The notes under the pieces are model-generated. The model made no database searches. It was not told the DNA's origin and saw only the letters and a program-made list of their open reading frames with translations. Positions 2,881 through 7,877 of a DNA stretch of 32,929 nucleotides are shown in pieces. Origin of the DNA: Candidatus Magasanikiibacteriota bacterium (GTDB lineage Bacteria > Patescibacteriota > Patescibacteriia > Magasanikbacterales > 2-02-FULL-50-9b); assembly GCA_023246755.1 (NCBI GenBank), contig JAHFHU010000009.1, positions 1 to 32,929 on the forward strand, written 5' to 3'. Numbering within the stretch: position 1 is the stretch's first letter; every line of letters starts with the position of its first letter. The translations under genes and the position numbers were made by a program.

Positions 2881-3028
2881 TAAGAAAAATAAAACCTCCC
2901 CGAACGTGTCTCTCGGAGGCATTGCGGGCCGGTGTCGCGCATGGCGCGACGAGCAATGTCGAGAGAGAGCGGAATTTTCCGCTGGGAAAATTAACGCGTG
3001 CACGTATGGGGAGGTTTTATTTTTCTTA
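2881..3028 (-). terminator. terminator-like inverted repeat downstream of RNase J whose loop contains structured element copy A
   Basis: TAAGAAAAATAAAACCTCCCC (2881-2901) pairs with GGGGAGGTTTTATTTTTCTTA (to 3028); T-rich 3' side on the minus strand. Confidence 0.75.
2909..3000 (+). repeat. dispersed structured element, copy A
   Basis: CATTGC-GGGCCGGT-GTCGCGC-ATG-GCGCGAC-GA-GCAATG, then AATTTTCC-GCTG-GGAAAATT. Confidence 0.7.
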
Positions 3029-5092
3029 CACTTCGATAATCACCGGCAGCACCATCGGTCGGCGCTTGGTTTGCGCGAACAAAAATTGTCCGACGTCGTT
3101 GCGAATTTTATTTTTGATGAATTCATCGAACGCTTGTGATTTGTGGTCCGACGCTTCGAGAATTTTGTGGACGAGCATGCGCGTTTTGTCGATGATCTCT
3201 TTGTTTTCTTTGACGAAGATGAATCCGCGCGAGATGATGTCGGGACTGCCGATGAGTTCGCCGGTGCGCTCTTCGATCGTCGCGATGACAACGAGCATAC
3301 CGTCTTCCGACATTTGCATGCGATCGCGGAGCACAATTTCAGAAACATCGCCGACACCAAGTCCATCAACCATGACATAATCCGCGGGCACGCGCTCTTC
3401 GGTCAAGCGGCCACCATTCACATCGAACGACATGATCTGTCCGTTGTCTGCGAGGAAAATATTTTCTTTCGGAACGCCAACACCCGCTGCGATGCGGCCA
3501 TGCGCCGCAAGCATAAAACGATTGCCGTGAATCGGGACGAAGAATTTCGGTTTGGTGAGGCGCAACATCAATTTGAGGTCCTCTTGTTTTGCATGACCAC
3601 CCGCGTGCACATCCATGTTTGCATAATGCACGACGTGTGCGCCGTGACGCACGAGCGTGTCTTTGAGACGCTGCACGCTACGTTCGTTTCCGGGAACGAC
3701 GGATGATGAAAAAATTACGGTGTCACCTTCTTGCAGGTGCAAAAATTTGTGTTCACCCGTTGCGATGCGCATGAGCGCTGCGTTCTTTTCGCCTTGCGCA
3801 CCCGTGCACAAAATTACCAATTGTTCATCGCGATATTTTCCAAACTCTTCTTCGGTGATGATGGTTCCGGGTTTGAATTGGAGGTAACCAAGTTCGTGCG
3901 CGAGATCAACATTTTTTTGCATCGAGCGCCCTTGGATCAAAACGCGGCGTCCATATTTTTCGCAGAGCGCGAGAATAATTTGTACGCGCGTTAAGAGCGA
4001 TGAAAATGTGCCGATGATGAGACGTGACGGTGCTTTGCCGATGATGCGATCGAGTTCGTCGAAGACGACCTGTTCTGAAATTTGGTGCCCCGGAGTGTCT
4101 GCGCCGGTTGAATCCGACATGAGTGCGAGCACACCTTTTGAACCAAACATCGCGATGCGATTAAGGTCGGCCGGCTCTTCGTTGACCGGGGTGAAATCAA
4201 ATTTGAAATCGCCGGTTACGAGTACCGTGCCAAATGGGGTGTGGATCGCGGCGCCGAATGCGTCCGAGATTGTGTGGTTGATGTGGAATGGTTCGAAGAT
4301 GAAATTTTTTCCGAGATGAAATCGTTCGTCTGCGTGTTGCACGATCACCATGTTAAGTTTCGGAAGGTTGGGATATTCTTCGTGGCGCGCGCGAACAATA
4401 CCGGCGGTGAGAGGCGCGGTGTAGATTGGTGGGTTGCCGATTTTTGGCAACACATGTGAGATGGCGCCGACATGGTCTAAATGTCCATGCGTGATGACAA
4501 CGCCGCGAATATTTTTTTCGCGGCCTTTGAACGTTGAGATGTTCGGGATGATGTAATCGATGCCCGGCATGCCTTCTTCAGGGAATTGAAGACCGACGTC
4601 AACGATGATGATGTCATCGCCACATTCGAGCACGGTGCAGTTACGGCCGATTTCTTCAAGGCCGCCGAGTGCGTAAATTTTGAGTTTGAGATTTGAATCC
4701 GCAGTTGGAGTTACGAGCGGTTCAAACACGTCGGCCTCGCGTTGTGAGCGTTTGACATCGATTCCTTCCGTGTTAAAATTTGGCGCATATTTTGCGTTGT
4801 TGCTTGTATGCGCGTGATACGCTTGGCGTTGTGCAAGCGGTGGAATGCCGTTGGTGTGTGTAGGACGCGGCGTTGGTGCACCTGCTGGCGCGTTGTGTGC
4901 GTATGATCCGCCGCCGCTGCTGCGATGGGCGGGCGGGCGCGACGAATTATACGGAGGTCGTGATGACGACGGACCGTTGCTGTTGAATCGGCGACCTGTT
5001 GCGGGTGTTGTTGTAGGTCGTCGTTGTGGGCTGATTCCACGTCGAAGTGGAGGGGTTGGCATCGAAGGCGATGCGGTTACGGGGGTTGGCAT
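3026..5092 (-). CDS. rnj: ribonuclease J (metallo-beta-lactamase/beta-CASP RNase) with long low-complexity N-terminal extension
   Basis: ALGGLEEIGRNC, VVITHGHLDHVGAI, HVHAGGHAKQEDLKLML-type motifs. Confidence 0.93.
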   Translation of the reverse strand: MPTPVTASPSMPTPPLRRGISPQRRPTTTPATGRRFNSNGPSSSRPPYNSSRPPAHRSSGGGSYAHNAPAGAPTPRPTHTNGIPPLAQRQAYHAHTSNNAKYAPNFNTEGIDVKRSQREADVFEPLVTPTADSNLKLKIYALGGLEEIGRNCTVLECGDDIIIVDVGLQFPEEGMPGIDYIIPNISTFKGREKNIRGVVITHGHLDHVGAISHVLPKIGNPPIYTAPLTAGIVRARHEEYPNLPKLNMVIVQHADERFHLGKNFIFEPFHINHTISDAFGAAIHTPFGTVLVTGDFKFDFTPVNEEPADLNRIAMFGSKGVLALMSDSTGADTPGHQISEQVVFDELDRIIGKAPSRLIIGTFSSLLTRVQIILALCEKYGRRVLIQGRSMQKNVDLAHELGYLQFKPGTIITEEEFGKYRDEQLVILCTGAQGEKNAALMRIATGEHKFLHLQEGDTVIFSSSVVPGNERSVQRLKDTLVRHGAHVVHYANMDVHAGGHAKQEDLKLMLRLTKPKFFVPIHGNRFMLAAHGRIAAGVGVPKENIFLADNGQIMSFDVNGGRLTEERVPADYVMVDGLGVGDVSEIVLRDRMQMSEDGMLVVIATIEERTGELIGSPDIISRGFIFVKENKEIIDKTRMLVHKILEASDHKSQAFDEFIKNKIRNDVGQFLFAQTKRRPMVLPVIIEV

Positions 5093-5107
5093 AATTTTTT
5101 AGTAGCA

Positions 5108-5245
5108 GTTCATTGTTCGAGCGCACGTGTCGAAATCCCCTGCGAGGATTTCGCACTCTCTCTCGGTCTCGCTCGTTTTGCTTCGCAAAACTCCCTGCCC
5201 GCTCGACCTGCGAGAGACGCTCTCGCAATGACTGCTAACAGATAA
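5108..5245. repeat. three tandem hairpins directly upstream of rnj (leader RNA or REP-like element)
   Basis: CGAAATCC/GGATTTCG (5131-5153), GTTTTGC/GCAAAAC (5175-5191), GCGAGAG/CTCTCGC (5210-5226). Confidence 0.6.
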
Positions 5246-5341
5246 GTTTGCCAAGTTTGTGAGCAAAATTTTAATCAACAAACAAAATGAATCAATTTTT
5301 AAATATTTTTTTTAATGGTGGAAAGGTTTAACGGGGGTTCC

Positions 5342-5490
5342 CCACGTTGGAAAAAAACTTTTGAGAGAGACTGCGCAACCCGTCCGGGCCGGTGTCGCGC
5401 AACGCGCGACGAGGACGGGTGAGGAAGTCGAGTGTTTCCCGCTGGGGAAACATGAGATGGTCTCTCGAAAAAGATTTTTTCCAACAGTGG
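5342..5490 (+). repeat. dispersed structured element, copy B, inside long terminator-like arms downstream of tRNA-Leu
   Basis: Outer arms CCAC..GTTGGAAAAAAACTTTTGAGAGAGAC / GTCTCTCGAAAAAGATTTTTTCCAAC..GTGG; core CCCGTCC-GGGCCGGT-GTCGCGC-AAC-GCGCGAC-GA-GGACGGG; TGTTTCCC-GCTG-GGGAAACA. Confidence 0.75.
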
Positions 5491-5573
5491 TGCCGCGGGC
5501 GGGACTTGAACCCGCATACCCTTGCGAGCGCTGGCACCTGAAGCCAGTGTGTCTGCCATTTCACCACCGCGGC
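5488..5573 (-). tRNA. tRNA-Leu (anticodon CAG), CCA encoded
   Basis: GCCGCGGTGGTGAAATGGCAGACACACTGGCTTCAGGTGCCAGCGCTCGCAAGGGTATGCGGGTTCAAGTCCCGCCCGCGGCACCA; CTGGC-TTCAGGT-GCCAG anticodon arm and extended variable arm. Confidence 0.95.
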
Positions 5574-5604
5574 AGACGGGATGGAAGAAGAATCAAGAAA
5601 ACAA

Positions 5605-5634
5605 ATTATAGCACACCGATCACACGTCTGTCAA
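5605..5634 (-). promoter_or_regulatory. promoter for tRNA-Leu
   Basis: Minus strand TTGACA, 18-nt spacer, TATAAT. Confidence 0.8.
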
Positions 5635-5648
5635 ACGCCGCGCAGATT

Positions 5649-7379
5649 TCATTTTTGAACACGTTTGGTGTTCAAAAACCAAGAAACAACGGTCGCGAAC
5701 CGATCGTTTGGGTCGCCAGAATTTGAAATCGTCACGCCAGACAGCTTATTTGCGATGTAATACTGATAAATCGGTTGGAAAAGAAACACCGCGGGGACAT
5801 CTGCAACGAGGCGCTGGTTGATTTTTTGCAAGAGCGCCGTGCGCGCGTCCGGACGATTTTCGACGCTCAACTGCTCAAGCCAGCCATCAACCTCTTTGAT
5901 CTGATAGCGAGCGTAATTTGCGCCTGATTCAGCGCTCGCCGTTGTGCTCCAAAACGGAATCGGGTTTGCGTTGAGACCGTAGTCTTGACCAAGTAGTAAT
6001 AAATCGTAGGAAAGAAGCGCGCCTGTTTTTGTTCCGGATCCGATGATTTGAGGGACGATTGTCACGCCAAAGGGCGCGAGCTGTTTTTTGATGTTTTCAG
6101 CAACTGCACCAAACGCGGGAAGCGCGGGAATACCGAGTGTGAAGGTGCTCGAGGTGGCCGCATTGTTGGCAGACAGATTTTTTTTGAACAGATCCGTGGC
6201 TTGCACGACATTAAGATCAGGCTCGGTTGAATTAGGACTGCTCAGCATTGATGAGGGGAATGGAGCGCGGGTCGCCACACCAATTCCTTTGAGATCTTGA
6301 GAAATGAGGTCCGAACGATTGAGGGCAAGCGCAAACGCGGTGCGCACATCTCGCTTTTTTAAATTGGCGTTGTGTGTCGGATTGAAAAACAGGCTGATAA
6401 TTATCGGCGGGGTGACGGTGAATTGTTGGACATCGCGTTTAACCAGCTCATCGGTTTGTACCGTGTCATGCACAAAAAGAGCGTCGACTTGACGTGTGCG
6501 AAACATGTCATACGCGGATGAATTATCTGGGGCGATACGAAAATTGAGTTCGTCGATAAAGGCGCGTTGCGGTTTAAAATTTTTGAACACGTCGAGATTG
6601 AAACTGTCAATGCCACCGTCACGATCAAAGGTTATGGAGCCGAACCGGAATGGCCCCGAGCCGACCGGTTTTAAATTTAAGTCGCTCATGATCATGCGAG
6701 CAGGATCAACGGCTGTCCATAGATTGTGCGGAATGATGCCGAGAGAGGTGAGCGTTTTTAATTCGGGAGTCGGTTGTTTTGTCGTGATGATCACCCGACC
6801 GGACGGATCTTTTGACGCAACGACGCGTGCGGCAAGCGCGCGCCACGGGCTTCCAACCGCCTTATTTTGCATCGCGGTAATGGTGAAAATTACGTCGTCC
6901 GATGTGATGGGGGTGCCATCGTGCCAAACGCGATCATCGAGGGTGATCGTTACCGATTTTGGATTTGAAAAATCACAGGTGCGCGCGAGCGTGGGGATGC
7001 CGCGATTGTATACGTCGCACAAGGGCAGAAAAAAAATATTTGACAGTGTGCGATCAGTATCCGTTACTGCAAAAAGCGGATTGATGTGACGCGGCGCGCC
7101 GACCAAAACTTCTTGAAGCGTTCCGCCTTCTGTTGGGGCCGCGACGGTATTCAGGAGGTGAATGCTGACAAAAATACCAACAAACGAAAGCAGCGCAACA
7201 AATCCGAGTGCGCCGATGAGATTTTTTTCCCATGTTTCCAAAAAAAGATCGATGTGTTGCAGTTGTGCAAGCGATGGAATTTTGGGTCGGGTGATTGACG
7301 GGGTAAGTGCTCGGCCGGGACGCTTCACCGAAGTTGTGAAATCCCGAATTCGCTCGCGAGCCTTCTCGAGAAGGCGCAT
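5649..7379 (-). CDS. ABC transporter substrate-binding protein, family 5 (peptide/nickel-type), membrane-anchored
   Basis: N-terminal TM segment; FLPLCDVYNRGIPTLA, DDRVWHDGTPITSDDVIFTI, DVRTAFALALNRSDLI motifs. Confidence 0.88.
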   Translation of the reverse strand: MRLLEKARERIRDFTTSVKRPGRALTPSITRPKIPSLAQLQHIDLFLETWEKNLIGALGFVALLSFVGIFVSIHLLNTVAAPTEGGTLQEVLVGAPRHINPLFAVTDTDRTLSNIFFLPLCDVYNRGIPTLARTCDFSNPKSVTITLDDRVWHDGTPITSDDVIFTITAMQNKAVGSPWRALAARVVASKDPSGRVIITTKQPTPELKTLTSLGIIPHNLWTAVDPARMIMSDLNLKPVGSGPFRFGSITFDRDGGIDSFNLDVFKNFKPQRAFIDELNFRIAPDNSSAYDMFRTRQVDALFVHDTVQTDELVKRDVQQFTVTPPIIISLFFNPTHNANLKKRDVRTAFALALNRSDLISQDLKGIGVATRAPFPSSMLSSPNSTEPDLNVVQATDLFKKNLSANNAATSSTFTLGIPALPAFGAVAENIKKQLAPFGVTIVPQIIGSGTKTGALLSYDLLLLGQDYGLNANPIPFWSTTASAESGANYARYQIKEVDGWLEQLSVENRPDARTALLQKINQRLVADVPAVFLFQPIYQYYIANKLSGVTISNSGDPNDRFATVVSWFLNTKRVQK

Positions 7380-7389
7380 ACGACGTTGA

Positions 7390-7608
7390 TTATTGGATCA
7401 ACAAATTTGCCGCGGCTGTTGCAAAGAATAGAACCGCAAGCACAATTGTCGCGCGAAAAAGAATTTTGTCGACGCCACGTTTCGTTGAATAAACATTGCT
7501 TGAGCCGCCAAAAGCCGCGCCCAATCCAACACCCTTTTGTTGCAACAAAATTGAGGTGATCAAGAGAACTGATATGATGATTTGGACGATGTTTAAAGCA
7601 AATTGCAT
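7390..7608 (-). CDS. secG: preprotein translocase subunit SecG
   Basis: LLITSILLQQKGVGLGAAFGGSSNVYSTKRGVDKIL motif, two TM segments, 72 aa. Confidence 0.93.
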   Translation of the reverse strand: MQFALNIVQIIISVLLITSILLQQKGVGLGAAFGGSSNVYSTKRGVDKILFRATIVLAVLFFATAAANLLIQ

Positions 7609-7665
7609 ATGGGGGGACTATATCAGAATTATGGGTGGTGCGTCAAGACTCAACTAATACCTATT

Positions 7666-7773
7666 CGAGAGACCACCTCACATTTTCTCAGCAGAAAACG
7701 CTCGGCTTCCTCGGCGTTGCTCGCCGTGCTGTGCACGGCACTGGCCCGCAACGCCTGTGCAGTTTCTCTCTCG
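7666..7773 (-). repeat. dispersed structured element, copy C (minus orientation)
   Basis: Reverse complement GGCGTTGC-GGGCCAGT-GCCGTGC-ACA-GCACGGC-GA-GCAACGCC, then CGTTTTCT-GCTG-AGAAAATG, flanked by GAGAGA/TCTCTC. Confidence 0.7.
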
Positions 7774-7810: not shown

Positions 7811-7877
7811 GGATGTGTGGCTGATTCGCGAAACGCGTTGCGGGCCTCTCGCGTGAGAGCGAATTAGCCACACATCC
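7811..7877. repeat. long inverted repeat between copy C and the DsbA-like gene
   Basis: GGATGTGTGGCTGATTCGC / GCGAATTAGCCACACATCC (19-bp stem with one G-U), inner CTCTCgcgtGAGAG. Confidence 0.7.

Follow-up and report, generated by a model that had tools for sequence, protein, structure and literature searches.

An unnamed family of structured repeats at gene 3' ends in Patescibacteria and other bacterial lineages

Main finding

The genome of a Candidatus Magasanikiibacteriota bacterium (GCA_023246755.1) carries copies of a real, unnamed, and widespread structured repeat family, four of which lie in the 32,929 nt of contig JAHFHU010000009.1 analyzed here (the window). What we demonstrate is the family, its fold, and its patchy multi-copy spread, along with the fact that copies lie next to gene 3' ends in a specific orientation and within locus-specific arms. 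The explanation that we retain, with a probability of around 0.5, is that of a dispersed, non-autonomous structured repeat element that uses gene-end hairpins as insertion sites, landing at or within them, possibly in the form of folded single-stranded DNA (ssDNA); its movement and the mechanism behind it are inferred. Structured, dispersed, and probably non-autonomous intergenic elements are a known kind. We cannot match any known system to this element's combination of spread across phyla, locus-specific arms, and a fixed gene-end orientation.

The genomes of Patescibacteria are small, and few mobile elements have been described in them. With up to around 15 copies per genome, strict gene-end orientation, and copy-specific ends, this element falls outside the usual definition of transposable elements, which relies on shared ends. 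It is a natural test case for whether long palindromes are built by template switching or by insertion into hairpin loops. In the absence of an Rfam family, annotators can use the covariance model to mark such sequences.

Copies in the window

The first-pass annotation of the window described three copies, at 2909-3000, 5342-5490, and 7666-7773 (minus strand). The strands that it quoted for helices P2, P3, and P4 are present exactly, and the GGGCCRGT/GA internal loop and the GCTG loop of P4 occur in all three copies. Its list was incomplete, since a fourth copy is found at 5116-5224 on the minus strand. The single architecture that it proposed holds for the common helices and loops and not for the junction, which separates copies 2 and 3 (subtype A, GACTGCGCA..GAGGAA) from copies 1 and 4 (subtype B), where a GTCTC..GAGAC pairing extends P2. 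Two further features, the most unusual of the family, were absent from that annotation: the long outer arm around the core, often unique to its locus and present in copies 1 and 2, and the placement at gene 3' ends.

To describe the copies, we used two covariance models: R1, trained on eight copies of the same genome (including copies 2 and 3 and excluding copies 1 and 4), and R2, trained on 41 copies. R1 recovers copy 1, which is outside its training set, at E = 1.3e-14 (68.0 bits). Hence, the observation is not due to chance. A control pattern read backwards gave 0 hits, against 9 for the true pattern.

The core of copy 1 (2903-3006, plus strand; R2 108.2 bits, E = 5.2e-21) comprises P1, P2-P3 with a GGGCCGGTG/GA internal loop, and P4 with its GCTG loop. 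It is enclosed by an outer arm, P0, made of a 28-nt inverted repeat: the distal side (TAAGAAAAATAAAACCTCCCC...; 2881-2908) is 93% complementary to the gene side (3001-3028), in which the RNase J gene (3026-5092, minus strand) has its stop codon. Copy 4 (core 5116-5224, minus strand; R1 44.8 bits, R2 92.9 bits, E = 1.3e-17) has imperfect outer arms on both sides. The core of copy 2 (5364-5467, plus strand; R1 114.3 bits, R2 87.2 bits, E = 2.4e-16) lies within a 26-nt inverted repeat whose distal side (5346-5371) is 88% complementary to the gene side (5460-5485); the latter ends around 5 nt from the 3' end of a tRNA-Leu gene (5491-5573, minus strand). Copy 3 (core 7666-7769, minus strand; R1 112.1 bits, R2 87.6 bits), between the divergent secG and thioredoxin-like genes, has lost its outer arms. 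The RNA folding energies of copies 1, 2, and 3 are -81.6 kcal/mol (z -10.5), -71.9 kcal/mol (z -7.0), and -52.4 kcal/mol (z -2.2), respectively.

Copy number and spread

We identified 14 copies in the 0.92 Mb genome using R1, and 8-15 copies in each of four congeners (10, 14, 15, and 8 with R2 in G001-G004), where R1 had already detected several per genome. R2 also gave four copies in a further genome, G005, and scattered matches in six other genomes of the order. Across the phylum, 24 of the 384 genomes sampled had R2 matches, with up to ten per genome. Good matches were confirmed by R2 on contigs labelled Patescibacteria/Parcubacteria, Uhrbacteria, Omnitrophota, Aminicenantes, WOR-3, Auribacterota, and Bipolaricaulota, and several of these, folded with their flanks, showed the same arms and P4. 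The counts from the pattern scan of GTDB contigs are lower bounds (at least the number given), and a few odd taxon labels, among which one deltaproteobacterial MAG, could be binning errors.

No element match was found in Rfam 15 at the gathering threshold for the window and 17 loci from several phyla; the best sub-threshold match, in a low-threshold scan, had E = 9.1 and was on copy 2. Our literature searches found no description of the element. The first-pass annotation had proposed an undescribed structured repeat family under constraint, and suggested searching with a covariance model and against Rfam. The further copies that the model found genome-wide and across phyla, the covariation described below, and the absence of an Rfam family matching the element all support this proposal. 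Of the outcomes that the annotation had named as refuting it, none was observed, ISfinder not being among the databases searched.

Fold and covariation

The core has about 105 bases, or about 150-200 with the arms, and forms a three-armed fold. On the sense strand its parts are ordered as P0, a GA-GA step, P1, P2, GGGCCRGTG opposite GA, P3, P2', a GAG.. linker, P4 with a GCTG-type loop, P1', and P0'. The compensatory changes initially claimed from three copies extend to the family, where no shuffle and no slid control reaches the observed covariation. Among the eight copies of the genome that were used for R1, 19 of the 37 pairs have two-sided changes, with 42 double-change cells against 12 in shuffles. 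With 41 copies, two-sided changes affect 32 of the 36 pairs, and the double-change cells number 305, against 90 in shuffles and 38-69 in slid controls. Relatedness is not accounted for in these shuffles, and the sequences tested are those that served to derive the structure; the gap is still large. Covariation alone is not proof of an RNA, as part of it could come from template-switch repair of palindromes.

The purine of the internal loop tracks the loop-closing pair of P4, being A with T-A in 7/7 copies and G with C-G in 31/34. From this covariation, we infer that the P4 loop probably docks onto the P2/P3 internal loop, which remains suggestive since related copies are not independent. In the genome under study, two Watson-Crick pairs replace the tandem GA step of P4 in three copies.

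The stems and arms contain 76 G.U pairs against 30 A.C mismatches on the sense strand. This strand is the more stable one in 51/52, 41/43, and 44/44 copies when the core alone is folded, an advantage that holds for nearly all copies under both RNA and DNA parameters. It thus appears to be the sense strand that selection sees.

Placement at gene 3' ends

Gene 3' ends within 35 nt of a core are found 46 times on the 3' side of the element and 5 times on its 5' side (p = 2e-9). In other words, the folded (sense) strand is antisense to the abutted gene. The same clustering at gene ends, at around 13-25 nt, is observed in other phyla. The outer ends of the arms are close to the stop codon, usually within a few bases, and in 11 cases the arm extends into the coding sequence by 4 nt or more. 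The neighbors vary: in the window they are secG and the genes for RNase J and tRNA-Leu, and elsewhere other tRNAs and many other genes. Genes were called with a simple codon-usage script and ARAGORN, and single distances may be off.

A functional non-coding RNA, either free or antisense to the abutted gene, would account for the covariation, the conserved unpaired bases, the probable tertiary contact, the more stable sense strand, and the preference for G.U over A.C: the junction and the docking would serve an RNA function, and the copies would be kept by selection. Yet promoters are not enriched on the sense strand (4% vs. 4% in shuffles), whereas they are on the opposite strand of the same flank (15%). 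The presence of the element in only 24/384 genomes, its locus-specific arms, and the lack of a consistent neighbor gene also fit poorly with such an RNA, which we regard as unlikely. Since the folded strand is antisense to the gene and lacks promoter enrichment, while the opposite strand has it, we consider a DNA strand folding when single-stranded more likely than a routinely transcribed RNA. This evidence is indirect and does not exclude a transcribed RNA. The choice between non-coding RNA and folded ssDNA, left open by the first-pass annotation, hence leans towards an ssDNA or DNA element and is not settled.

Plain palindromes of the same genomes have the geometry of the element, with a loop 15-18 nt past the stop codon and an arm overlapping it. 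At the end of the RNase J gene, the place that copy 1 holds in our genome is taken by a plain terminator in G001 and by a looser one in G002. Taken together, these two observations suggest that the element sits in gene-end hairpins. Orthologous gene ends without the element exist in sister species. Its placement and geometry might also be explained by a host 3'-end element, i.e., a terminator or mRNA stabilizer with an elaborated loop, maintained for the preceding gene. It would be found at the 3' ends of genes and tRNAs with the stop-to-loop distances of plain palindromic terminators, and copy 1 does occupy a site where RNase J orthologues have them. We find this distinctly unlikely, because the conserved and better-folding strand is antisense to the gene and sister species manage without the element. 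Copy 1 and about ten copies of the genus look terminator-like by eye, but U-tracts are not clearly enriched at the arms (38/95 and 37/95 vs. 31/95 shuffled), and the copies as a whole fall short of the criterion for an intrinsic terminator, a stem and then a U-tract on the strand of the gene (38/95 vs. 31/95 shuffled). Moreover, arms are equally well paired away from gene 3' ends (median stem score of 13.5 vs. 12.5). Terminator loops therefore cannot be the only target, and we rejected terminators as the sole origin of the arms.

Outer arms

Around most copies, pairing continues into further arms of around 15-25 bp. In the genome under study and its congeners, the arms look unrelated from copy to copy, even when the cores are similar. 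For example, the cores at C21:23156 and C19:11679 (L052 and L054) differ at around 8/100 bases and have arms that look unrelated. Whole copies including their arms are shared within G396, G294, G003, and an Omnitrophota MAG. Copies with shared arms carrying compensatory differences were found in G396, G294, and L067/L069. An intermediate situation occurs in G142/G184 and in G263, where the inner 9 bp or so of the arms are in common and the outer part is unique. At L057, the gene-side arm is the conserved coding end of the gene (..SVTLI-stop), and the G005 orthologue without the element (L086) ends in ..SVTII-stop. Given the coding origin of the gene-side arm, it is the distal one that must be a copy, matched to the former.

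Hairpins can be created and maintained by template switching (PMC8794818), and the arms, together with part of the covariation, may be mutational products of this process: switching at hairpins would copy one flank onto the other and correct mismatches, resulting in pairing without strong selection, and the cores would be homogenized by gene conversion. The matched distal arm of L057 and the common inner arms of G142/G184 and G263, which continue into locus-specific outer arms, are in line with such a process, which we hold to be possible, at less than even odds. It leaves unexplained the conserved unpaired loops, the docking covariation, and the orientation bias at gene ends.

Mobility

Under the preferred reading, an element inserting at or into gene-end hairpins, copies would spread when a folded single strand inserts into or beside such a hairpin, often a terminator-like palindrome, and the target hairpin would become the outer arm of the inserted copy. 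Such spread is supported by the similar cores with unrelated-looking arms at C21:23156 and C19:11679, by the whole copies shared within other genomes, and by the orthologous gene ends of sister species that are without the element. The driver could be some enzyme or template switching alone, and neither was identified. We find it rather doubtful that this is a transposase-less mobile element common to several candidate phyla, whose folded ssDNA would enter the loops of gene-end hairpins in one orientation and adopt the host hairpin as its arm, hence the differing ends. No insertion event was seen between close strains, the nearest comparisons being between species. Some orthologous loci hold the element in more than one species, a pattern also compatible with ancient insertions plus gene conversion. 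Classic MITEs have terminal inverted repeats conserved between copies and a target-site duplication. Here, such repeats are shared in G396, G294, L067/L069, and an Omnitrophota MAG, and are not common to most copies in G000-G003 (G000 being the genome under study); visual inspection of a single recent pair (L213/L267) showed no target-site duplication.

Three enzymes were considered as mobilizers and rejected. The Y1 transposase domain (PF01797, Y1_Tnp) shows no association with the element, occurring in 6/24 positive genomes and 6/24 negatives; it is absent from G000-G005 (five members of the genus and G005), although the search detected it in 12 of 48 genomes and in control genomes. Reverse transcriptase is absent from many positive genomes and does not track with the element. 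Tyrosine recombinases, counted as one class without singling out the integron integrase IntI, number one or two per genome, with none found in G244, and do not track with the element (no negative genomes were compared). Given these distributions, no mobilizer is identified.

Comparison with known systems

In integrons, the bottom strand of attC folds just after the stop codon, antisense to the gene, and its structure matters more than its sequence. The folded strand of the element is likewise antisense and just past a stop codon. In contrast to attC, it has no R-box pair, its neighbors include housekeeping genes and tRNAs, and it is the core that is conserved, not the base. The attC boxes RYYYAAC/GTTRRRY were found at the stem base of 1/95 copies, against 0.3 expected.

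Group IIC introns, among others, target terminator hairpins and insert in a specific orientation. The orientation-specific location at gene-end hairpins is similar, whereas the element has no intron or ORF, and the reverse transcriptase is missing from many genomes that carry it.

The bcr1, ERIC, and BOX repeats are foldable intergenic sequences of 100-200 bases with conserved ends and no transposase of their own. They resemble the element in foldability, size, location, and lack of a transposase (no direct sequence comparison was made), but its ends often vary between copies and its core has a fixed orientation against gene 3' ends. Among these repeats, bcr1 appears in PMC6542083 and PMC3446304.

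REP sequences have 20-40 bp and a GTAG or CGTC tag (PMC3733652, PMC3116915). Like REPs and REPINs with their RAYT transposases, the element is an intergenic, palindromic, multi-copy repeat that is probably mobile, non-autonomous, and folded on one strand. These likenesses could point to an element of REP/REPIN type or derived from IS200/IS605 and mobilized by a Y1 (HUH) transposase. This possibility is already weakened, and we regard it as very improbable: the domain is found in 0/6 of the genomes of its own family (G000-G005) and is equally frequent in positive and negative genomes, the host has no RAYT, and the core, a 105-base three-way junction set in locus-specific arms, is much longer than a REP. 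It also lacks the tag, since GTAG and CGTC were each found at the hairpin foot in 6/95 copies, whereas shuffles give 12.3 and 8.3, respectively.

Variant copies and other palindromes

A third subtype, at L071:6894-6997, L068:4214-4316, and L079:3-106, keeps GACTGCGCA..GAGGAA..GGTC and is devoid of the GGGCC internal loop. Further derived or degenerate cores in long unique arms were observed at L066:4123-4264, L077:3345-3493, L073:3524-3646, and L068:4422-4553. The first was recovered by R2 (G003:C30:14139), and the others only by a palindrome scan. As to carriage by viruses, IMG/VR, a viral collection, gave only one contig with a match for each of two patterns (L311, L312). In the 1.0 Mb single-contig genome G396, all ten copies listed lie on the same strand (loci L139-L147); their flanks are alike outside the arms too, and some tandem duplications, partial ones, occur.

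These genomes commonly have plain bidirectional hairpins, 13-21 bp in length, with an arm starting at the stop codon and the loop 15-18 nt past it (L054:326-371, L055:2233-2274, L058:3719-3766, and others), which are possibly a compact terminator style of this lineage. Finally, the window has a perfect 19-bp palindrome with a 29-nt loop (GAAACGCGTTGCGGGCCTCTCGCGTGAGA) at 7811-7877, just upstream of the thioredoxin-like gene. It matches neither R1 nor R2, yet its loop contains GTTGCGGGCC.
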